Source: Oscillospiraceae bacterium
Lineage (GTDB): Bacteria > Bacillota > Clostridia > Oscillospirales > Acutalibacteraceae
DNA length: 64,000 nt
Direction: 5' to 3'
Assembly (NCBI GenBank): GCA_015065725.1
Contig: SVPV01000008.1
Location: 1 to 64,000 of the forward strand
The notes below the pieces were generated by a model that saw only the letters and a list, made by a program, of their open reading frames with translations, was not told the origin of the DNA and searched no databases. Shown here piece after piece: positions 15,310 to 25,756 of the stretch. The translations under genes and the position numbers were made by a program. The number at the start of each line of letters is the position of its first letter. The stretch's first letter is position 1.

Positions 15310-17655
15310 ATGCCCTTAAAAAACCGTTTTTTTCACGCTAATACCGAATATAATACCTTTAAAAAGCACGTTTCGGCACCTATACTCCGAAAAGCGTTCA
15401 GCTACACTTCGGGCAAGGTGAATGTAAAGGTAATAGGTCTTGGTTTTTACCGTCTGTTTGTAAACGGTAAGGATATTACAAAGGGGGAATTAGCACCCTT
15501 TATTGCTAACCCCGACCATATAGTTTATCTTGATGAATACGATATAACCGAGCATTTGTCTGAGGGCGAGAATGTTGTAGGCCTTATGCTTGGCAACGGT
15601 ATGCAAAGCACCGATGTAAAATATTGGGGGTTTTGTGAAAACGTTTTTCGTTCGGCACCTAAGTTCAGCTTTAGCCTTACGGTTGACGACGAAGAGCTGT
15701 TTGATGCGGGCGACTTTTTGTGGAGTGAATCGCCATATTATTTCGACGATTTAAGAAGCGGAGTCTTTTATGATGCCAGACTTGAACAAAAAGGCTGGTG
15801 CGAAAAAGGCTTTGACGATTCCAACTGGAAAAAGGTAACCAAGGCAGAGTCGGCAAGGGGAGAAGTACGCACAAAGGTATCGCCTGATGTGGTGGTTTAT
15901 GATGAGGTAGCACCCGTTTCGGTAAAACCCTCAAACCTAAAGCCCGAATATGTAGACGCGGGCCAGCACGATTTGGGCGGTCCGTATCTTGAAACGGCAC
16001 AAGACCGTACAGGCGGATATCTTTATGATTTCGGTGTTAATACTGCGGCTATTTTCCGCCTTAAAGTAAAGGGCGACCGAGGACAAAAGATATCTTTGCA
16101 GTTTTGCGAGGTTTTGGATAGCGACGGCAGACCCTCATACGACAATTTGGGTTATTTCCCCGACGGATATGTTCAGCGTGATATTTATATCTTAAAGGGT
16201 GAGGGCGAGGAGGTATTTGTTCCTGCCTTTACTTATCACGGCTACCGTTATTGCTATGTTACAGGTATAACCGAGGCACAGGCTACAAAAGAGCTTGTTA
16301 CTATGCTAAAGGTATCGGACGACTTTGTAAAACTCGGCGAATTCTCTTGCTCGGATAAAGATATAAACACTTTACAGGAAATGGTGGTTAATTCAAACCT
16401 TTCAAACTTCGTACATTTCCCAACCGACTGTCCGCATAGAGAAAAAAACGGTTGGACAGGCGACGCTACCGTTTCTGCAGAGCAGATGCTTTTGAATCAC
16501 GATGTAACAGGCGGCTGGCGTGAGTGGCTTTGTAATATTCGTGCCGCACAAAAGGAAAGCGGACAAATTCCTTGTATAGTACCGACTGAATCTTGGGGCT
16601 ACGAATGGGGCACAGGTCCTATTTGGGATAATGTTCTCTTCGAGCTTCCCTATATGGCATACATTTATCGAGGTAATGACACCTTAATAAAGGAAAACGC
16701 TACGGCAATGTTCCGCTATCTTCATTATGTTGACAAAAAACGCCGTGATGACGGAATGGTTTGCTATGGACTAGGCGACTGGTCGGAAACCGATATGCGT
16801 TTCGGTACGCCGACTTGGGATTTTAGTTTACCTAAAGCTCCGCTTGAGTTTGTTGATACTGCTGCTATATATGATGCTTCTAAAAAAGCCGCATTTATGT
16901 TTGATGTTATAGGCTATAAAAAAGAAAAAGCCTATGCCGAAGCATTGGCTGAAGAGCTTTTAACCCTTTTACGTAAAAGGTGTATAAATCACGGCACCGC
17001 TACCGCTATAGGAAGATGCCAAACCACACAGGCTGTGGCTATAGCCCTTGGAATATTTGAAGACTGTGAGCTTTATAACGCAGGACGGGTGCTTGAAGAA
17101 ATCATAGCTGATGACGGCGGCCGCTTTGACGGCGGTTTTTACGGTATGCGTTATTTATTCCATGCACTCTCAATTACAGGCAGAAGTGATTTGGCGTATA
17201 AGCTTATTATGCGTGAGGAATACCCATCTTACAAATGGACTATTAACGAGGGTATGACCGCTTTGCCTGAGGGCTTTAAGACTAAAGAAAGCTTTTCCTA
17301 TAATCACCACTTCTTTGGGGATATTTCGCATTGGTTCTATAGATGGCTTGGCGGTATAAATGTTAATCCTTATGGCGATAATGCGAATTATGTCGAAATC
17401 TGTCCGCGTTTTATAGATGCACTGTCTGATGTAAAGGCAAGCTACGTTTTGTCGGGCGGTAAGGTTTCTGTTAAGTGGGAAAAACATTCACACGGCAAGG
17501 TTTCTGTCTTTGTTGAGGCTGACGAAGACGTAAAGGTACGCTTTTTAGCACCTGAGGGATATGCTGTAACCTGCCCCGAAGACAAAGAATTTGACGGAAT
17601 GAGGATTCTCGATAACATTCCAGAGGAAATTTTGCTTAAAAAGGTTAATTCTTAA
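15310..17655 (+). CDS. alpha-L-rhamnosidase (GH78)
   Basis: This 781-residue enzyme has no signal peptide. N-terminal beta-sandwich domains carry FVNGKDITKGELAPF and LMLGNGMQ (about 35-100), and the (alpha/alpha)6 catalytic domain has FPTDCPHREKNGWTGDA at about 370-386, the diagnostic GH78 block, followed by LGDWSET and a C-terminal beta-sandwich. It removes terminal alpha-L-rhamnose from oligosaccharides in the cytoplasm. The ATG at 15310 follows AAGGGGAGAG; an in-frame start at 15268 inside the upstream gene has no SD. It lies 22 bp after the second GH3 gene, so it is probably co-transcribed. Rhamnose release is the best clue to the locus substrate. Confidence 0.9.
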   Translation: MPLKNRFFHANTEYNTFKKHVSAPILRKAFSYTSGKVNVKVIGLGFYRLFVNGKDITKGELAPFIANPDHIVYLDEYDITEHLSEGENVVGLMLGNGMQSTDVKYWGFCENVFRSAPKFSFSLTVDDEELFDAGDFLWSESPYYFDDLRSGVFYDARLEQKGWCEKGFDDSNWKKVTKAESARGEVRTKVSPDVVVYDEVAPVSVKPSNLKPEYVDAGQHDLGGPYLETAQDRTGGYLYDFGVNTAAIFRLKVKGDRGQKISLQFCEVLDSDGRPSYDNLGYFPDGYVQRDIYILKGEGEEVFVPAFTYHGYRYCYVTGITEAQATKELVTMLKVSDDFVKLGEFSCSDKDINTLQEMVVNSNLSNFVHFPTDCPHREKNGWTGDATVSAEQMLLNHDVTGGWREWLCNIRAAQKESGQIPCIVPTESWGYEWGTGPIWDNVLFELPYMAYIYRGNDTLIKENATAMFRYLHYVDKKRRDDGMVCYGLGDWSETDMRFGTPTWDFSLPKAPLEFVDTAAIYDASKKAAFMFDVIGYKKEKAYAEALAEELLTLLRKRCINHGTATAIGRCQTTQAVAIALGIFEDCELYNAGRVLEEIIADDGGRFDGGFYGMRYLFHALSITGRSDLAYKLIMREEYPSYKWTINEGMTALPEGFKTKESFSYNHHFFGDISHWFYRWLGGINVNPYGDNANYVEICPRFIDALSDVKASYVLSGGKVSVKWEKHSHGKVSVFVEADEDVKVRFLAPEGYAVTCPEDKEFDGMRILDNIPEEILLKKVNS

Positions 17656-17726: not shown

Positions 17727-17799
17727 GTAGGGACCGCCGTCCCCGACGGTCCTTTATTTTATATGCGGTTAAAAGGACCGTCGAGACGTCGGTCCCTAC
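17727..17799. repeat. inverted pair of GGACCGTC...GGTCCCTA intergenic elements
   Basis: Unit 17728-17752 (TAGGGACCG...CGACGGTCC) and unit 17775-17798 (GGACCGTCG...GGTCCCTA) are near-perfect inverses. A third copy lies at 61944-61969. They are short non-coding dispersed repeats common in Clostridial genomes. Confidence 0.6.
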
Positions 17800-17843
17800 A
17801 ATGTGAAAATGTTGATTATTGTAAATTAAAATTTTTACAATGG

Positions 17844-17872
17844 TTGAAAAAACAAATTAAATGTGGTAGAAT
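17844..17872 (+). promoter_or_regulatory. promoter of structured RNA 1
   Basis: TTGAAA (17844-17849) and TAGAAT (17867-17872) are spaced exactly 17 bp. The transcript should begin near 17879, at the base of the long hairpin. The layout is the same as for RNA 2. Confidence 0.7.
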
Positions 17873-17878
17873 AATTTT

Positions 17879-18018
17879 GCTACACGAATTTAATAATCTC
17901 TACGCGGGGAAAATACCTTGGTAAAAGGTGTTGTCCTCAAATCCCGTGTGGAGATATTCGTGTAGCAACGACTGAGGGTGAACACTTTTTCGGCGTACCT
18001 CTCGGGGTACGCTTTTTT
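17879..18018 (+). ncRNA. structured small RNA, tandem copy 1
   Basis: No coding frame fits. The outer stem 17877-17889 pairs with 17956-17968 (TTGCTACACGAAT with its exact complement, 13 bp). A 6-nt bulge is followed by an inner stem, 17896-17908 with 17943-17955 (13 bp including G-U pairs), and an apical hairpin containing TACCTTGGTAAAAGGTG (17914-17930), bounded by GGAAAA and a pyrimidine-rich return strand. A short linker with ACACTTTTTCGGC leads to a terminator stem GCGTACC/GGTACGC and T7. Copy 2 repeats the plan with compensatory stem changes. I do not recognise the family; it is too short and lacks the central bubble of 6S RNA. Confidence 0.75.
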
Positions 18019-18019
18019 T
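17993..18019 (+). terminator. terminator of structured RNA 1
   Basis: GCGTACC (17993-17999) pairs with GGTACGC (18006-18012), followed by seven Ts. Confidence 0.9.
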
Positions 18020-18022
18020 GTG

Positions 18023-18051
18023 TTGATTTTTATTTTTACTTATGGTAGAAT
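18023..18051 (+). promoter_or_regulatory. promoter of structured RNA 2
   Basis: TTGATT (18023-18028) and TAGAAT (18046-18051) are spaced 17 bp, beginning directly after the RNA 1 terminator. The context ATGGTAGAAT parallels TGTGGTAGAAT in copy 1. Confidence 0.7.
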
Positions 18052-18055
18052 TTAC

Positions 18056-18200
18056 TTGCAACGCAAACTGAATAAATGACTCTAGCGTAGGGAAAATACC
18101 TTGGTAAAAGGTGTTTTCCTCATCCCTCGTTAGAGTCGGTTTGCGTTGCAACAAACCGAGGGAAGCACTTTTTCGGCACACTCTTCGGGGTGTGCTTTTT
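18056..18200 (+). ncRNA. structured small RNA, tandem copy 2
   Basis: It has the same architecture as copy 1. The outer stem 18056-18068 pairs with 18139-18151 (TTGCAACGCAAAC with its exact complement). The inner stem is GACTCTA/TAGAGTC plus GCG/CGT and GGG/CCC. The apical hairpin with TACCTTGGTAAAAGGTG is identical to copy 1, here within a perfect GGAAAA/TTTTCC frame. The tail has CCGAGGG and CACTTTTTCGGCAC. Stem sequences differ from copy 1 yet remain paired, while the apex is invariant, the signature of a selected RNA fold. It ends in a terminator 18 bp before the probable SLOG-gene start, so it could also act as a leader. Confidence 0.75.
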
Positions 18201-18201
18201 T
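18176..18201 (+). terminator. terminator of structured RNA 2
   Basis: GCACAC (18176-18181) pairs with GTGTGC (18190-18195), with CTC/GGG extending the stem, followed by six Ts. Confidence 0.88.
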
Positions 18202-18218
18202 AATTGGGGTTGATATTA

Positions 18219-18599
18219 TTGTTTAAAAAAGTATTGCCAACAAAAAGAGTTGTAATTGCAGGGTGCAGGAATTACAACAATTATGATGAGGCAAAAGTAT
18301 ATATAGATTTTTGTTTGTCGAATGTTCGAAAGGAAAACGATATTATTATTGTTTCGGGCGGGGCAAGCGGTGCTGATAAAATGGGCGAACGCTACGCTAA
18401 AGAAAACGGATTCGAGGTCGAACAATATCCTGCCGACTGGGAAAAATACGGCAGAAGTGCGGGACCGATACGAAATCGGCAAATGGCAGAGGTCTGCGAC
18501 TATGTTATTTGCTTTTGGGACGGAAAAAGCCGAGGCACAAGGTCGATGATTGAATTAGCAAAGAAATATGGCAAACCTGTTAAAATCAAAAGAATATAA
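18219..18599 (+). CDS. SLOG-family protein (DUF2493, YspA/YpsA-like)
   Basis: The roughly 126-residue Rossmann-like protein has RVVIAGCRNYNNY at the N-terminus, the phosphate-binding loop VSGGASGADKMGERYA (about 46-61), then GRSAGPIRNRQMAEVCD and CFWDGKSRGTRSMIELA, all standard for DUF2493/SLOG proteins predicted to bind nucleotides or nucleotide-derived ligands. The start is probably the TTG at 18219, giving MFKKVLPTKR; TTGGGG about 10 nt upstream is a weak SD, and another TTG at 18204 is possible. There is no room for a separate promoter after the RNA 2 terminator, so expression may rely on read-through. The cellular function is unknown. Confidence 0.82.
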   Translation: MFKKVLPTKRVVIAGCRNYNNYDEAKVYIDFCLSNVRKENDIIIVSGGASGADKMGERYAKENGFEVEQYPADWEKYGRSAGPIRNRQMAEVCDYVICFWDGKSRGTRSMIELAKKYGKPVKIKRI

Positions 18600-19075: not shown

Positions 19076-19099
19076 ACTGATTTTGAAAGGATGGTAATG

Positions 19100-22000
19100 A
19101 TGGTAAAAAACAAAATCAAATCCCCAATTGCGTTATTGGTGGTGTTTGCCATTATCCTGTCTACAATTATTGTAGGCGTTGTGGCAACTGAACCGCCGGC
19201 TAACGTGCTTACAGACCCTAGTGTTGTAGGCGACCTTTTTCGTATCGATTTAGCAACAAAGCTAACACAAGAGGGACAGTTCAATGATACCGAAAAGGCT
19301 AAGCTTGTGTACGACAATCTTACAAGAACTACTGGTAACAGTGATGTTCGTTTTCGTGGGGTAGACGTTAATGACTATGATAATGACGGTAATGTTACAG
19401 AGTCATTTTACGCCTCACAGTATAACCTTACAAATGACCAAGTAATTGACGGTCAGATTTTATCTAATGAGTTAAGCGGTTTTACAATCAATAACGATTA
19501 TTTTGGTGACAACCGTAACAAGATTCGTGTGGCTATCGGCTTTGAGTTGGGTGCAGATTATAAGCTTGACGATTTTGTTGTAACCCAAGACGTTACAAAT
19601 AGTGATTATAACAGAAGAATAATACAAAGCTCGGTGTATGTAGGCGATGCTTTGGATGAAACCATCTTCCAAAATAAAGCTTATACCGTTAGCACCCCTG
19701 ATTATGATGAAGATACTATAACCTTTAACTTTGACGAGGGTACAACTGCTAGCTGCATATTATTTGTATTTGACTGTGTGTATGCAACAGACAATGGCTT
19801 TATAAATATGCACGCGTACACAGATTTCTGCGTAACAAATATGGAGCTTCACGGTGAAAAGCAAGCTCCCGTAGCTAACAACATACTTAAGGAAGCAGAA
19901 GTTGTAGGCGATATTTATAAAATCAATTTGCCAACTGCTTTAGCAGAGAATAAAACTTATGCTGAAATCGAAAGCTCTTTGGTATATAACAATATTCAAG
20001 TAGCTGCCAATGCTAGCGATTTCGTGTTTATGAAAAAAGACATAAACGACGAGGATAACGACGGTAATACCGACGAAAACGTATCTGCTACAGATTTAGG
20101 TCTTACCGACGACCAAGTAATCGACCAAAAGATTTTAACAAACGGTGCGGCTAATGACTTAAAGCTTGAGCATATCAGCGGCGGCACAAATTGTATGAGT
20201 GCCCGTTCAGCTTTAGGCTTTGATTTAGGCGGAAAGTATGACCTTACTAATTTTAAGCTCTCTCAAACTAGCGATAGAGGTGCTCTTAATATCTCGGTAT
20301 ATGCCGGAAATGCTATTGATGCAACCATCTTCCAAAATAAAGTAGGCGTAGGCACAGTAAGCCAGGCAACTGACATATTTGATATAGCATTAACAGGTGC
20401 TACTTCTGTTAGATATTTATTGGTTGTTTTTGACCATTGTGGTGAGTTTAGCACAAAGGAAACAAGTCCGCATACATACTATCCTACATTAACAGGTCTT
20501 GAGCTTTACGGTGAGCTTGTAACTCCAGCTCCTACAAGCATACTTACCGAAACAGATGTAGTAGGCGACCTTTACCGTATTGAGCTGGAAAACGCTTTAA
20601 CAGACGGTGCAAGTATCGACGATGCTGCTGAACAGGCTAAACTTTCTGCTGAAAATTATATCAGCCTTAACAACGGCGACAACACAAAAATGAACTTTGT
20701 CAATGGCCAAGGTACAGCATCTGAAGATTTAGATCCTGCACTTACAGATAATGATGTAATTTTAGGTCAAATGGTTTCTGGCGAGCTTGAAGGCTTTAGA
20801 ATCTACTATGACACAGCGGGTCAAACACGCCTTGAGAACCGTGCTGCTATAGGCTTTGATTTAGGCACGTATTATACCCTTGACGAGATTGTCTTAACAA
20901 AAGATGTTGCGTTGACTTGTAGAATAGTTCAGGCATCCGTTTATGTAGGGGATACTTTAGATACAACTATCTTTAACAACAAGGTAGGTACAGCAAGGGT
21001 AGATTTTGCTGATGCTACTATGAAGATTGAATTCCCCGAAAACACAGCAGGCAAATGCATAGTAATAGTATTTGACCATGTTCTAGACCCCTATAATGGT
21101 GAAGTTATCGGTATGTGGAATCATACTGATTTCTCTCTAACAAATATAGAGCTTTACGGCGAAAAACAACCTGTTGTAGCTACTAATATACTTACCGAAA
21201 CAAATGTAGTAGGTGACCTTTATAAGATTGAATTGCCCGAAGCTATAACAGATAATGTTGCTTTCAACGCTACCGAGCAGGCAAAGCTTGTTTACGGTGA
21301 GAATCACCTGCTTTCTGTATGCGGTGATGAAAGCGGATTTATATTTAAAGGAAAAGACGGAAATAACAACCTTGTTTCTGCTGCTTCTTTAGGTCTTACC
21401 GATGACCAAGTAATTGACGATAAGATTATAGCAAACAATAATGCCGAAAAGTTTGCAATTGTGTCTCAAAACAGCAATATCCCTCTTGGGAACCGTGCGG
21501 CATTAGGTTTCGATTTAGGTGCTTACTACGATTTAGATGAGCTTGTTTTAACCCAAAACTTCTACGAAGGCAGAAAGATTTATAACTTCTCGGTTTACGT
21601 AGGAAACGAAATGGATGAAACCATCTACCAAAACCAAGTAGCTACAGGCGGCAGTGCTACCGAAGCCACATTGACTTCTACATTTGCTGACGGTGTAAAC
21701 GGCAGATATGTTTTAGTTGTATTTGACCATGTTGGAACAGACGGTACAACAAACAGATATGCGTATGAGCAATTCTCTATAGGTAACATTGAGCTTCACG
21801 GTGAAAAGACAGGCGAGCTTCCAACGCCTACACCTCCGCCAACACCCACACCTAAAGAAAACGTACTTACTAACGAGTCTGTAGTGGGTGACCTTTACAA
21901 GATTGTATTGCCTGAAGCTATAACAGATAATGTTGCTTTCAACGCTACCGAGCAGGCAAAGCTTGTTTACGGTGAGAATCACGCTCTTGCGGCATGCGGT

Positions 22001-25000
22001 GATGCAAGCGGATTTATATTTAAACGAAAAGACCTTAATGACGAAAATAGCAACGGCAAGACAGACGACTTTATTTCTGCTACAGAGTTAGGTCTTACCG
22101 ACGAGCAAATTATCGACGATAAAATTATAGCAAACAATAATACCGAAAAATTTGCAATTGTATCTCAAAACAGCAATATCCCTCTTGGGAACCGTGCGGC
22201 ATTAGGCTTTGATTTGGGTGCTTACTACGATTTAGATGAGCTTGTTATAACCCAAAACTTCTACGAAGGCAGAAAGATTTACAACTTCTCGGTTTACGTA
22301 GGAAACGAAATGGATGAAACCATCTTCCAAAACAAAGTAGCTACAGGTGGCAGTACTACCGAAGAAGCTACATTGACTGCTACCTTTAATGGTACAGTAA
22401 ACGGCAGATATGTTTTAGTTGTATTTGACCATGTTGGAACAGACGGTACAACAAACAAATATGCTTATGAGGTATTCTCTATAGGTAACATTGAGCTTCA
22501 CGGTGAAAAGACAGGCGAGCTTCCGCCTCCTCCAACACCGCCCGCAAACATACTTAAAGATAGCAATGTAACAGGTGACCTTTATAAGATTATCTTACCA
22601 GAAGCTATAACACACGATGTTGAGTTTGATGCTACAGAGCAGGCAAAACTTGTTTACGGCGATAACCACGTGCTTTCCGTATGTTCAGACGACAGCGACT
22701 TCCGCTTTATGAAGCCTGCGGGAGAAGACCTAAACGGTAACGGCACCACTTCCGACGACTATGTTTCTGCTAAAGAAGCAGGCTTTACCGATGACCAGAT
22801 TATTGACCAAAAAATCCTTTCGGGTAATAACCCCGAGCCGTTTATAATTAGAGCAGCAACTTCTAGTTTCGCTAACCAAAACCGTGCGGCAATCGGCTTT
22901 GATTTGGGTGCTTACTATGATATGGATGAGCTTGTTTTAACCCAAAGCTTCTACGCTGAGAGAAGTGTTTACAACTTCTCGGTTTACGTAGGAAACGAGA
23001 TGGATGGAACAATATTCCAAAACAAAGTGGCTACAGGCGGCAGTGCTACAAAAGAGACCTTGACCGCTACCTTTAGCGAGACTGTAAACGGCAGATATGT
23101 TTTGGTTGTATTTGACCACGTTTCAACAACAGAAGGCAAAACAAACAAATATGCTTATGAGATATTCTCTATAGCTAATGTTGAGGTTTACGGCGAAAAG
23201 ACAGGCGAGCTTCCTGCACCGCCTAAAAACGTGCTTTTGGACGCTAACGTAAAGGGCGACCTTTACAAAATTGAATTGCCTGAGGCTATAACACACGATG
23301 TAGACTTTAATGCTACAGAGCAGGCAAAGCTTGTTTACGGCGACAAACACTCACTATCCTTATGTTCAACCTCGGGCGACTTTAGGTTTATGAAGCCTGC
23401 GGGCGAAGACCTAAACGGTGACGGTAAATTAAACAATGACTTCCGTTCCGCTAAAGATTTGAACCTTACAAATGACCAAGTTATCGATAAATACATGCTC
23501 ACAGGTAACAATTCTGAAAACTTTACTATAAGAGCAAGATCTTCTAATTTTGCTAATGAAAACCGTGTAGCAATAGGCTTCGATATGGGTGCTTACTATG
23601 ATATGGATGAGCTTGTTATAACTCAAGGCTTTGAAGAAAGCAGAAAGATTTATAACTACTCGGTTTATGTAGGCAATAAGATGGATGAATCCATCTATAA
23701 GAACAAGGTAGCCTCGGGTGCTAATCCGTACAAGGTTGACCTCACCTCTACCTTTGCTGACGGCGTAAACGGCAGATACATTTTAATTGTATTCGACTTC
23801 GTTGCAACCGAAGGCAAAACAAATAAATATGCTTACGAAGTTTTCTGGGTAAAAAATATTGCCCTTTACGGTGAAAAGACAGGCGAGCTTCCCATAGTTG
23901 ATAAGGGTACAAACGTACTTCTCGGCAATACTTCGGGTAGAGTACATCAGGTAAATTCTCCGTTCATTGAGAATCTTTCTCTTTACGTACCCAATTATGA
24001 CAATCTTACATATACAAAGCTTTACGATAACGATTCAAGTAACCGTTTCAGGACTGAGCTTTACGATCCTAAGACTCAAAAGCTTATAAAAATGGACCAA
24101 TCTACAGACGAAGAACCTAATCCCGATGCAATAAATGACCCAAGCCTTAAGTATATAACCGACGGCACTTTAGACGAAGAGGTTCTTATCAGATATACCG
24201 GAAACCATACTAACGGATTCGTTGAAAACAGGCGTTCGGCAATTATGTACGACCTTGGTGCCTGGTATGACCTTAATGAAGTGGTTATTACACAGAATGT
24301 TGATAGCCGTTCAATAAGAAACTATTCGGTATATGCAGGTGCGTTTACCGATTCAAGATTGTTATCAAGCCGTGTAGGTGTAGGCGGCGGTACCAGTGAG
24401 GTTATTCCTGCTGAGCTTACCGATGCAAAGAATGTAAGATACCTACTTATAGTATTTGATAACATCACCGAAACTACAATCAAAGAGGCTAACGTTTGGG
24501 CATATCAACCTTATCTGTTACAGATTGAAGCATACGGCAAAAAGCTTACCAATCCTATTATACCGTTCGATTATAAGTCAAACGATATTTTAGAAAACAA
24601 CGAAAACATTAAGTTTAGCATGGCACTTATAGAGCATGAATTCAGTTGGACGGACAGCTTTGAAAAGGGCAGTTACGACTATGCTGTGGAAGACTTTAGC
24701 CTACAGTCTGAAATGGATGTGTCGGTATACGGTAAGTGGGTTGACGGCAAAGCAGATACCACAGCATACTGGGCACACGGTATAAGCTCTAAACAGAATA
24801 TTACTCATCGTAGAGCCTTAATGATTGACCTTGGCGGTTTCTATGATGTAAACGAGCTTGTAATGGACGCTATGACATCTACGGGCAGATACATTTATGA
24901 CTTTACCGTATATGGCGGTATGGTTGCAGATGCTTCTATTATGAATAACCGTATCGGTCACGGCGGTGACGACGGCGAATTTGTTTCTTCTATTTTAGAC

Positions 25001-25756
25001 TCCAAGAAATCGGTTCGTTACATACTTATTGTATTTAACAAGCAAGGTACGGACCCCGGTAACCTTGATGACGACGGAAGAAGTCTTCGCGACCAGATAG
25101 ACACAACAGGTGCTTTAAAGGGCTGTACTTGGGCAGACGCAGGTGTTTACATAGGTGATATTTCACTTTACGGTAAAGAGGGTGTTGATACCACCGAAAC
25201 CTTAACCTACACTGACCCCGATACAGGCATTAAGGTAGAGGTTATTACCTATGATAACCCCGTTTCTATAGCCAGCATAGCAATTAAACGCACACCGATT
25301 AGTGATATTCATAAAGGTATGATTACGCTTGATGCTATGTATCCTCTTGGTGACGGATATCGCATTGAATTCTACGACAAACAAGGAAACCTTGTTACCG
25401 ATATGTCGGGTAGACAGTTTAAGGTATCCTTCCCGATGGAATACGGCGACGAGGTTGCCTATACAATCGATGAAGACGGTTCGTTAAGACTCCTCAATTT
25501 GGCTCTTGATATGGACGAAGGCACCCTTGTATATGCGTCTTCACCTAATGACATCATCTTTGATTTCATCATTGCATCCTATACCGAACCCGAAACAGAG
25601 GACGATGGTGATAAATCCGAAACCGACAAGAAGGACGGCGGAGGATTAAGCACTACGGCGTTGCTTGCAATAGTAATTGCGGGTGCAGTAGTTATTATCG
25701 CTGGTGCAATCACAGTATTATTAATTGTGCTAAAACGCAGAAAAAATAATAATTAA
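19100..25756 (+). CDS. giant membrane-anchored protein with nine discoidin-like modules
   Basis: The protein is about 2,218 residues. An N-terminal signal/anchor (KSPIALLVVFAIILSTIIVG) is followed by nine modules of about 190-230 residues, each starting N(V/I)L...VVGDLYKI and containing AIGFDLGAYYDLDELV, YNFSVYVGN and GRYVLVVFDH, the beta-strand pattern of F5/8 type C (discoidin/CBM32-like) domains. Modules 1-7 fall into subtypes A B C D D D D; 8 and 9 are divergent. Pro/Thr linkers separate modules 4-7. A C-terminal domain, an Asp/Glu/Lys linker, one TM helix and KRRKNNN anchor it; no LPxTG was seen. It probably binds glycan at the cell surface. The start is one of clustered ATGs (19091-19100); 19100 has the best SD spacing. 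Confidence 0.85.
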   Translation: MVKNKIKSPIALLVVFAIILSTIIVGVVATEPPANVLTDPSVVGDLFRIDLATKLTQEGQFNDTEKAKLVYDNLTRTTGNSDVRFRGVDVNDYDNDGNVTESFYASQYNLTNDQVIDGQILSNELSGFTINNDYFGDNRNKIRVAIGFELGADYKLDDFVVTQDVTNSDYNRRIIQSSVYVGDALDETIFQNKAYTVSTPDYDEDTITFNFDEGTTASCILFVFDCVYATDNGFINMHAYTDFCVTNMELHGEKQAPVANNILKEAEVVGDIYKINLPTALAENKTYAEIESSLVYNNIQVAANASDFVFMKKDINDEDNDGNTDENVSATDLGLTDDQVIDQKILTNGAANDLKLEHISGGTNCMSARSALGFDLGGKYDLTNFKLSQTSDRGALNISVYAGNAIDATIFQNKVGVGTVSQATDIFDIALTGATSVRYLLVVFDHCGEFSTKETSPHTYYPTLTGLELYGELVTPAPTSILTETDVVGDLYRIELENALTDGASIDDAAEQAKLSAENYISLNNGDNTKMNFVNGQGTASEDLDPALTDNDVILGQMVSGELEGFRIYYDTAGQTRLENRAAIGFDLGTYYTLDEIVLTKDVALTCRIVQASVYVGDTLDTTIFNNKVGTARVDFADATMKIEFPENTAGKCIVIVFDHVLDPYNGEVIGMWNHTDFSLTNIELYGEKQPVVATNILTETNVVGDLYKIELPEAITDNVAFNATEQAKLVYGENHLLSVCGDESGFIFKGKDGNNNLVSAASLGLTDDQVIDDKIIANNNAEKFAIVSQNSNIPLGNRAALGFDLGAYYDLDELVLTQNFYEGRKIYNFSVYVGNEMDETIYQNQVATGGSATEATLTSTFADGVNGRYVLVVFDHVGTDGTTNRYAYEQFSIGNIELHGEKTGELPTPTPPPTPTPKENVLTNESVVGDLYKIVLPEAITDNVAFNATEQAKLVYGENHALAACGDASGFIFKRKDLNDENSNGKTDDFISATELGLTDEQIIDDKIIANNNTEKFAIVSQNSNIPLGNRAALGFDLGAYYDLDELVITQNFYEGRKIYNFSVYVGNEMDETIFQNKVATGGSTTEEATLTATFNGTVNGRYVLVVFDHVGTDGTTNKYAYEVFSIGNIELHGEKTGELPPPPTPPANILKDSNVTGDLYKIILPEAITHDVEFDATEQAKLVYGDNHVLSVCSDDSDFRFMKPAGEDLNGNGTTSDDYVSAKEAGFTDDQIIDQKILSGNNPEPFIIRAATSSFANQNRAAIGFDLGAYYDMDELVLTQSFYAERSVYNFSVYVGNEMDGTIFQNKVATGGSATKETLTATFSETVNGRYVLVVFDHVSTTEGKTNKYAYEIFSIANVEVYGEKTGELPAPPKNVLLDANVKGDLYKIELPEAITHDVDFNATEQAKLVYGDKHSLSLCSTSGDFRFMKPAGEDLNGDGKLNNDFRSAKDLNLTNDQVIDKYMLTGNNSENFTIRARSSNFANENRVAIGFDMGAYYDMDELVITQGFEESRKIYNYSVYVGNKMDESIYKNKVASGANPYKVDLTSTFADGVNGRYILIVFDFVATEGKTNKYAYEVFWVKNIALYGEKTGELPIVDKGTNVLLGNTSGRVHQVNSPFIENLSLYVPNYDNLTYTKLYDNDSSNRFRTELYDPKTQKLIKMDQSTDEEPNPDAINDPSLKYITDGTLDEEVLIRYTGNHTNGFVENRRSAIMYDLGAWYDLNEVVITQNVDSRSIRNYSVYAGAFTDSRLLSSRVGVGGGTSEVIPAELTDAKNVRYLLIVFDNITETTIKEANVWAYQPYLLQIEAYGKKLTNPIIPFDYKSNDILENNENIKFSMALIEHEFSWTDSFEKGSYDYAVEDFSLQSEMDVSVYGKWVDGKADTTAYWAHGISSKQNITHRRALMIDLGGFYDVNELVMDAMTSTGRYIYDFTVYGGMVADASIMNNRIGHGGDDGEFVSSILDSKKSVRYILIVFNKQGTDPGNLDDDGRSLRDQIDTTGALKGCTWADAGVYIGDISLYGKEGVDTTETLTYTDPDTGIKVEVITYDNPVSIASIAIKRTPISDIHKGMITLDAMYPLGDGYRIEFYDKQGNLVTDMSGRQFKVSFPMEYGDEVAYTIDEDGSLRLLNLALDMDEGTLVYASSPNDIIFDFIIASYTEPETEDDGDKSETDKKDGGGLSTTALLAIVIAGAVVIIAGAITVLLIVLKRRKNNN

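Follow-up and report, generated by a model that had tools for sequence, protein, structure and literature searches.

We analysed a stretch of 64,000 nucleotides (the window) from contig SVPV01000008.1 of an Oscillospiraceae bacterium. Positions 17844-18201 of the window hold two copies in series, A and B, of one structured RNA, each with a promoter and a terminator. The upstream neighbour of the two units is an ORF ending at 17655, and behind copy B lies a gene of the YspA/SLOG family. The features are as follows.

17844..17872, forward strand: promoter of copy A, TTGAAA/17 bp/TAGAAT, with TG one base before the -10 (extended -10)
17877..18019, forward strand: whole structured leader RNA of copy A, through the end of the U-run (fold, BLAST, covariance model)
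17877..17889, forward strand: 5' strand of outer stem P1 of copy A, partner 17956-17968 (minimum-energy fold)
17890-17895, forward strand: 6-nt A/U bulge of copy A between P1 and P2, on the 5' side only (fold)
17896..17908, forward strand: 5' strand of inner stem P2 of copy A, partner 17943-17955 (fold and co-variation)
17909..17935, forward strand: apical hairpin P3 of copy A, loop GGTAA at 17920-17924; the tail can pair with its 3' strand
17972..17990, forward strand: putative switching tail of copy A, CTGAGGGTGAACACTTTTT, with two alternative partners, the apical 3' strand or the terminator 5' strand
17993..18019, forward strand: intrinsic terminator of copy A (fold; hairpin -13.7 kcal/mol)
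18023..18051, forward strand: promoter of copy B, TTGATT/17 bp/TAGAAT, extended -10 (sequence reading)
18056..18201, forward strand: whole structured leader RNA of copy B (fold, covariance model)
18056..18068, forward strand: 5' strand of outer stem P1 of copy B, partner 18139-18151 (fold)
18078..18092, forward strand: 5' strand of inner stem P2 of copy B, with one bulged T, partner 18124-18137 (fold)
18094..18116, forward strand: apical hairpin P3 of copy B (fold)
18155..18173, forward strand: putative switching tail of copy B; partners are the apical 3' strand plus bulge, or the terminator 5' strand
18176..18201, forward strand: intrinsic terminator of copy B (fold)
18219..18599, forward strand: YspA/SLOG-family gene behind the leaders, start TTG 18219, about 18 nt after copy B

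In each unit the order is P1 (13 bp), an A/U-rich 5' bulge, P2, a pyrimidine-rich 3' bulge, P3, the tail and the terminator, and it turned out that P2, the apical hairpin and the terminator are all present in the minimum-energy folds of both copies. The sequence of P1 differs between copies A and B and is fully paired in both; the apical hairpin UACCUUGGUAAAAGGUG is identical in the two, and the tail, of the form GAGGG...CACUUUUU, lies upstream of the terminator. The preliminary description had reported a pair of structured RNAs here, each with its own promoter and terminator. Its coordinates and details were found correct on re-reading and folding, the promoters being read in the sequence and the terminators in the fold; the ORF behind copy B and the two alternative partners of the tail were absent from it.

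The gene behind copy B matches Pfam PF10686 (YAcAr) with E 6e-15 when translated from 18207, and it probably starts at TTG 18219, which agrees with the ATG of a homologue behind another copy of the RNA, on contig C18 of the same genome. Just 5' of copy A, at 17728-17803, there is a palindromic element, GTAGGGACCGCCGTCCCCGACGGTCC ... GGACCGTCGAGACGTCGGTCCCTAC. Palindromes of the type 'TGTAGGGGACG...' upstream of the copies at locus L020, and weaker ones at L004, resemble it by eye and are perhaps an interspersed repeat of these genomes. Further along the window, an ORF of 2221 residues (19091-25756) probably encodes a surface protein: what looks like a signal peptide is followed by several diverged repeats and, at the C-terminus, a membrane anchor.

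Distribution and co-variation of the RNA

To Rfam the RNA is new. An Rfam 15 scan of the whole window gave a single match at the gathering score, a tRNA, and none on the two units, where the matches below threshold (snR51, ncS025, STnc100 and others) were all far under their cut-offs; this agrees with the preliminary description, which could not match the pair to tRNA, tmRNA, SRP, 6S, T-box or riboswitch consensus features. Scans of ten copy-bearing loci yielded only tRNA and Gut-1 RNA, neither on the RNA studied here, and at locus L038 a microRNA model matched the opposite strand at E 0.0076, with others weaker and none credible. Neither a known Rfam riboswitch class (cmscan) nor the T-box covariance model was matched in these scans. 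The Gut-1 RNA (RF01706, 69.3 bits) lies at L017 847-921, less than 1 kb from a copy in genome G059. Besides, we found no description of the RNA in the open-licence literature, RNA sequence strings included, and the available excerpts of PMC6429828, PMC7266159 and PMC8040213 contain nothing resembling it. The RNA family is real and, as far as these searches reach, undescribed, and its function is what we infer below.

With copy A as the BLAST query, further copies were found in its own genome (E 1e-10 to 4e-6), one on contig C18 before another YspA/SLOG gene and one common to the ends of contigs C5 and C22. In all, the host genome has nine copies: two in the window, and those on C18, C5/C22, C14, C21, C4, C17 and C2. 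The end of C5 and the start of C22 (loci L005 and L006 of genome G000) carry the same RNA copy; the assembly may have split a single copy, or there are two identical copies or a repeat. On C5 the terminator of this copy lies opposite the end of a convergent gene, which by reading looks like a polysaccharide deacetylase, and no co-directional gene lies behind the copy.

A covariance model of three host copies (R1), from which the split C5/C22 copy was left out, matched 40 of 60 relatives' genomes and 12 of 24 genera, own genome counted, at E 0.1 or better. A second model (R2), built from 13 of the sequences found by R1, detected the RNA within the order in 102 of 295 genomes, from 61 of 148 genera (E 1e-4), within the class in 89 of 391 genomes, from 51 of 220 genera (E 1e-5), and in 2 of 398 genomes drawn from the phylum (E 1e-6), namely the own genome and one of its genus. 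The search for homologues with co-varying stems that the preliminary description had proposed, by covariance model, thus found many in Oscillospirales relatives. A deeper R2 search of five genomes gave 8, 7, 10, 17 (G166; one is an echo) and 6 matches; since only the best candidates of each genome were scored (10 for the order, 7 for the class and phylum, 150 for the deep search), the counts of copies are minimum values. Among named genomes, a pattern scan matched at least 120 stretches, and all 80 loci among the matches listed are titled as uncultured or metagenome-assembled Clostridia, Clostridiales, Oscillospiraceae, Ruminococcaceae, Ruminococcus, Ruminiclostridium, Clostridiaceae or Bacillota.

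Phages and plasmids were searched as well. The window copies had no match among phages and plasmids, a common-type copy had none among plasmids, and two exact-pattern scans of viral contigs found none. The RNA does occur on two unverified human faecal scaffolds labelled 'Bacteriophage sp.' (MT835845.1 2060-2261 and MT837627.1 2227-2338; L222 and L223). The ORFs around the MT835845.1 copy (a Clp-like end and lipoproteins, by reading) look bacterial, and the labels of both records may be wrong. We rejected a phage or plasmid origin on the plasmid and viral-contig results, two phage-labelled records matching, the first with bacterial-looking neighbours.

The RNA occurs in several forms. In the commoner one, P1 is near GCGACACAA and the apical hairpin near GYAUUUUUAUUUUGGUAAAAAYGC, whereas the window type has UACCUUGGUAAAAGGUG. 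A third, longer form is found at G000:C17:29891-30096 (L218) and G000:C2:39237-39447 (L219), with P1 near TTGCCAAAC...GTTTGGCGAC and the tail end UUUUUUGUGCGG; the C2 copy lies directly before a gene for a secreted protein which by reading resembles N-acetylmuramoyl-alanine amidase.

To describe the family we used 162 non-redundant copies, obtained from 93 + 93 matches minus 14 and minus ten duplicates, the split C5/C22 copy staying outside. The 14 left out were five echoes or cut pieces among the first 93, and four echoes and five repeats under other locus ids among the second 93.

The stems co-vary across this family. In a MAFFT alignment of 13 sequences, 84.8% of cells were paired, compared with 77.0% after shuffling and 35-58% when the alignment was slid, and two-sided changes were seen at 24 of 46 pairs. 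For 86 distinct model-aligned rows (alignment A8; 84 copies and 2 reverse-strand echoes) the figures were 93.0% paired versus 70.5% shuffled, with two-sided changes at 42 of the 46 pairs, in an alignment that is fitted to the model and so leans to structure by construction. Within A8, P1 had 97.3% of its cells paired and two-sided changes in 12 of its 13 pairs. The compensatory change which had been noticed between the outer stems of copies A and B, differing and both fully paired, thus extends to other members of the family, and the pattern indicates that the stem structure is under selection.

Parts of the RNA are conserved in sequence too. P1 is conserved although it is paired, and the AAUA of the 5' bulge is conserved to 74-95% per position over 87 copies (alignment A7). 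The pattern used to build A7 prescribes part of the tail, which biases tail conservation in that alignment; the 84-copy set is free of that. The apex varies more than the two window copies suggest, since over 162 copies the apical loop is GGTAAAA in 115, GGCAAAA in 22 and something else in 25. An invariant apex had been taken in the preliminary description as the sign of a binding site, a reading that is not needed: the apex varies family-wide, and it can be explained without such a site because its 3' strand is also a partner of the tail. A ligand or protein site is possible elsewhere, at the outer stem near GCNACACAA together with the AAUA bulge. A tRNA reading through the UGG of the loop was rejected, as the loop is not invariant. 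Two equal helices folding back on each other were also considered and are unsupported, the lengths of P1 and P2 being uncorrelated (r -0.14 over 158 copies).

Position before genes and alternative pairings of the tail

The copies carry a promoter of their own and tend to stand directly before a gene. Directly before the RNA, 153 of the 162 copies have an extended -10 (TGnTAnnnT), which was present at 2.2% of 3000 positions drawn at random from these loci, inside genes as well as between them. Behind 143 of the 162 copies there is a same-strand ORF with a ribosome-binding site within 350 nt, at a median of 21 nt from the RNA end, and 132 of these 143 ORFs start with ATG. Of the 19 misses, several can be put down to arrays, to contig ends or to start codons that the ribosome-binding-site pattern does not cover, the TTG of the window included. 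Where 350 nt of sequence existed, a gene start lay within 30 nt downstream of 97 of 158 copies, versus 3 of 149 for divergent starts upstream and 35 of 810 for random places. A median gap of 21 nt usually leaves no room for a second promoter, so the gene would be read through the terminator. An intrinsic terminator stands between promoter and gene, as in an attenuator, the missing second promoter being deduced from the gap.

The best reading of the unit is thus mostly as the 5' leader of the gene directly behind its terminator. Each of the two RNAs had earlier been called a complete transcription unit; the promoter and the terminator bear this out, and the free-standing nature does not, as the unit appears to belong mostly to the adjoining gene. 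The RNA has a family median length of 163 nt. Eight tandem arrays hold 21 of the 162 copies, and in at least four of them (L020, L078, L157 and the window, by reading) units follow one another with no gene between. The array at L020 (G007:C26), at 858-1640, consists of four tandem units with 52-nt spacers, each with promoter and terminator; it adjoins a divergent ParA-like ORF (by reading), and only the last unit has a gene directly behind it.

For the downstream genes, we searched Pfam with 129 ORFs (unique, starting within 120 nt and cut at 330 residues) and that of the window. The 130 proteins match 60 families. Among the 25 families listed, 19 proteins have BspA-type leucine-rich repeats, 5 are YspA/SLOG (YAcAr), 2 YpsA, 5 HTH_3 and 4 AMP-binding; families hit once include an ABC transporter, peptidases and a VanY carboxypeptidase. 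A simple rule assigns an export-like N-terminus to 70 of the 130 downstream proteins, compared with 82 of 454 further ORFs from these loci (p 6e-15), and a lipobox to 24 of the 130, compared with 23 of the 454. In genome G146, four copies (L038, L065, L077 and L087) each precede a similar small protein. No common pathway was seen among the Pfam families listed, so the signal cannot be named from the genes.

The tail has two possible partners. In copy A its duplex with the apical 3' strand has -17.7 kcal/mol and that with the terminator 5' strand -11.9 kcal/mol; in copy B the tail can form an uninterrupted run of 16 pairs with the bulge and the apical 3' strand (-21.4 kcal/mol), and its duplex with the terminator 5' strand has -10.7. 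We compared the pairing of each copy's own tail with that of other copies' tails and of shuffled tails in 159 of 162 copies (the pattern found no tail in 3), kinship between copies being left uncorrected. On average the own tail paired with the apical body at -16.3 kcal/mol, the tails of other copies at -12.3 and shuffled ones at -7.2 (Wilcoxon p 5e-27). With the terminator 5' strand the values were -15.4, -13.2 and -6.6 (p 3e-15 and 3e-16).

Part of the difference between own and swapped tails could be a difference between sequence types. Within the commoner type only (112 copies), own pairing was still better, with -16.4 versus -13.7 for the apical body (p 3e-18) and -15.9 versus -15.0 for the terminator (p 5e-5), and so it was in 39 other copies (p 4e-12 apical, 1e-10 terminator). 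In the window's own type (10 copies) swapping the partner made no difference (p 0.77 and 0.43), so the switch in the window is argued from likeness to the family.

The two pairings differ in the column-wise count over 13 sequences. Between tail and apical strand 98.3% of cells were paired and 4 of 9 pairs had changed on both sides; in the antiterminator no pair had, so its support comes from the alignment-free swap test. Folding up to the terminator 5' strand gave an antiterminator of 5 or more pairs in 157 of 159 copies. At full length, the minimum-energy fold had the terminator in 95 and the antiterminator in 64 of the 159, and copies A and B both have the terminator. Keeping the last 17 nt single-stranded cost 7.1 kcal/mol on average, relative to a fold in which the tail was free and the terminator allowed. 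As the terminator is favoured at equilibrium, an antiterminator that forms first would have to hold by kinetics or with help. The swap test and the folds of the growing RNA thus favour the antiterminator, while the column-wise count and the equilibrium energies are contrary to it. The pairing of the tail with the apical strand would be a pseudoknot, which is outside the energy model.

Explanations and known systems

The anatomy, the stem co-variation, both pairings, the placement before genes and the distribution come from sequence and computation. Taken together they make it quite probable that the leader RNA controls the downstream gene by transcription attenuation, as a riboswitch-like promoter-attenuator module. 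Switching in the cell, the default state, the signal and the direction of regulation are what the following account would add to these observations. A dedicated housekeeping-type promoter would start the RNA, and P1, P2 and P3 would fold first. Pairing of the tail with the terminator 5' strand could then give an antiterminator hairpin before the 3' half of the terminator is made, and polymerase would enter the gene. Pairing with P3, on its 3' strand together with the neighbouring pyrimidine bulge, would instead leave the terminator free, and transcription would stop with a short RNA (family median 163 nt). The tail appears to mimic the own 5' strand of P3, hence the pairing between tail and P3 would be a strand exchange. 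A signal favouring one state, most likely acting through P1, the AAUA bulge and P3, would set the output. On this account the module precedes unrelated genes of Clostridia, more than half of which have an export-like N-terminus, and in the window two units in series would precede the YspA/SLOG gene.

Several observations speak against an attenuator. Arrays without an intervening gene are not needed by a plain attenuator, and the C5/C22 copy converges with a gene rather than preceding one; the equilibrium energies and the null swap result in the window type count a little against it.

The signal of the attenuator could be read by a protein rather than a small molecule, namely an RNA-binding antiterminator or terminator factor recognising P1 and the AAUA bulge. 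This would be a version of the attenuator, and we consider it possible with less than even chances. A P1 conserved in sequence although it is paired, and an AAUA conserved to 74-95% per position, suit reading by a protein, and the diverse gene targets also agree with it, yet the conserved P1 and bulge would suit an RNA aptamer equally well. With similar hesitation, and judging from the sequences, we raise the idea of a class-wide portable cassette that reads one global signal (a second messenger, a metabolite or a factor) by a new aptamer and joins unrelated accessory and surface genes in one regulon. The conserved P1 and AAUA bulge are compatible with a small-ligand aptamer, and are not a proof of one.

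It is unlikely that the units are stable small RNAs acting in trans, on mRNAs, on a protein or on each other, with the genes behind them incidental. The own promoter and terminator of each unit, the eight arrays with 21 of 162 copies and the C5/C22 copy with no co-directional gene would fit such RNAs. They would not account for same-strand starts within 30 nt in 97 of 158 cases versus 3 of 149 on the other side, nor for the complementarity of tail and terminator kept copy by copy. Among 32 copies of six genomes, moreover, the own tail pairs at -15.9, tails of other copies of the same genome at -11.9 and those of other genomes at -11.1, and tails from the same genome do not fit significantly better than tails from different genomes (p 0.08), a result in favour of action in cis.

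A mobile attenuator or recombination site (a transposable-element terminator, or a folded site like attC) which landed before genes is very improbable. Unrelated genes carry the RNA, some genes recur with the leader in one genome (the four copies in G146: L038, L065, L077 and L087), and mobile attenuators are described in PMC2965389. However, the copies have diverged with pairs kept by two-sided changes, unlike recent near-identical repeats, the promoter and orientation are conserved, and no match was found in plasmids or in two exact-pattern scans of viral contigs. Finally, 6S RNA or a paralogue of it, suggested by the long hairpin, asymmetric bulge and own promoter, was rejected: the genome holds a separate 6S gene above the cut-off (55.3 bits, C5:3696-3892), and the copies gave no match to RF00013 at E values up to 10.

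T-box leaders are long leaders with a terminator/antiterminator switch. The RNA is like them in this, and many of its copies have UGG in the apical loop; unlike them it has no T-box Rfam match, an apical loop that is not invariant and no amino-acid gene pattern among the Pfam families listed.

In OFF-type transcription-terminating riboswitches, as described in the available part of PMC7266159, a terminator competes with an antiterminator, and the attenuator shares with them a 5' leader, an upstream structured domain, a strand shared by two helices and a terminator just before the gene. It differs in having no known ligand, Rfam match or shared downstream pathway, and in its dedicated -10 (153 of 162 copies) and its arrays of whole promoter-RNA-terminator units. 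Attenuator regulons, with similar 5' terminators before non-homologous genes, were described by Naville and Gautheret (2010; PMC2965389) in a survey which, in the excerpt available, covers Enterobacteria and bacilli. The present RNA is similar in that respect; unlike those attenuators it is clostridial and co-varying, has a median length of 163 nt and has its own promoter. Fremin and Bhatt (2021; PMC8040213) reported 3161 candidate RNAs of the human microbiome, 508 of them within 25 bp upstream of genes, according to the part of the paper available. This RNA could be among these anonymous candidates, and that part contains no described anatomy like its own that we found.

In conclusion, gut bacteria that have been little studied carry a large RNA class without an Rfam 15 match, and the five genomes searched most deeply have 6 to 16 copies each. 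The RNA offers a direct test of a strand-exchange attenuator, in which one strand of an upstream hairpin is copied by the tail. Should the switch work, a single signal would govern genes for surface proteins (BspA-type leucine-rich repeats), lipoproteins, SLOG proteins and small uncharacterised proteins, and its discovery would give access to the physiology of organisms known mainly from metagenome bins.
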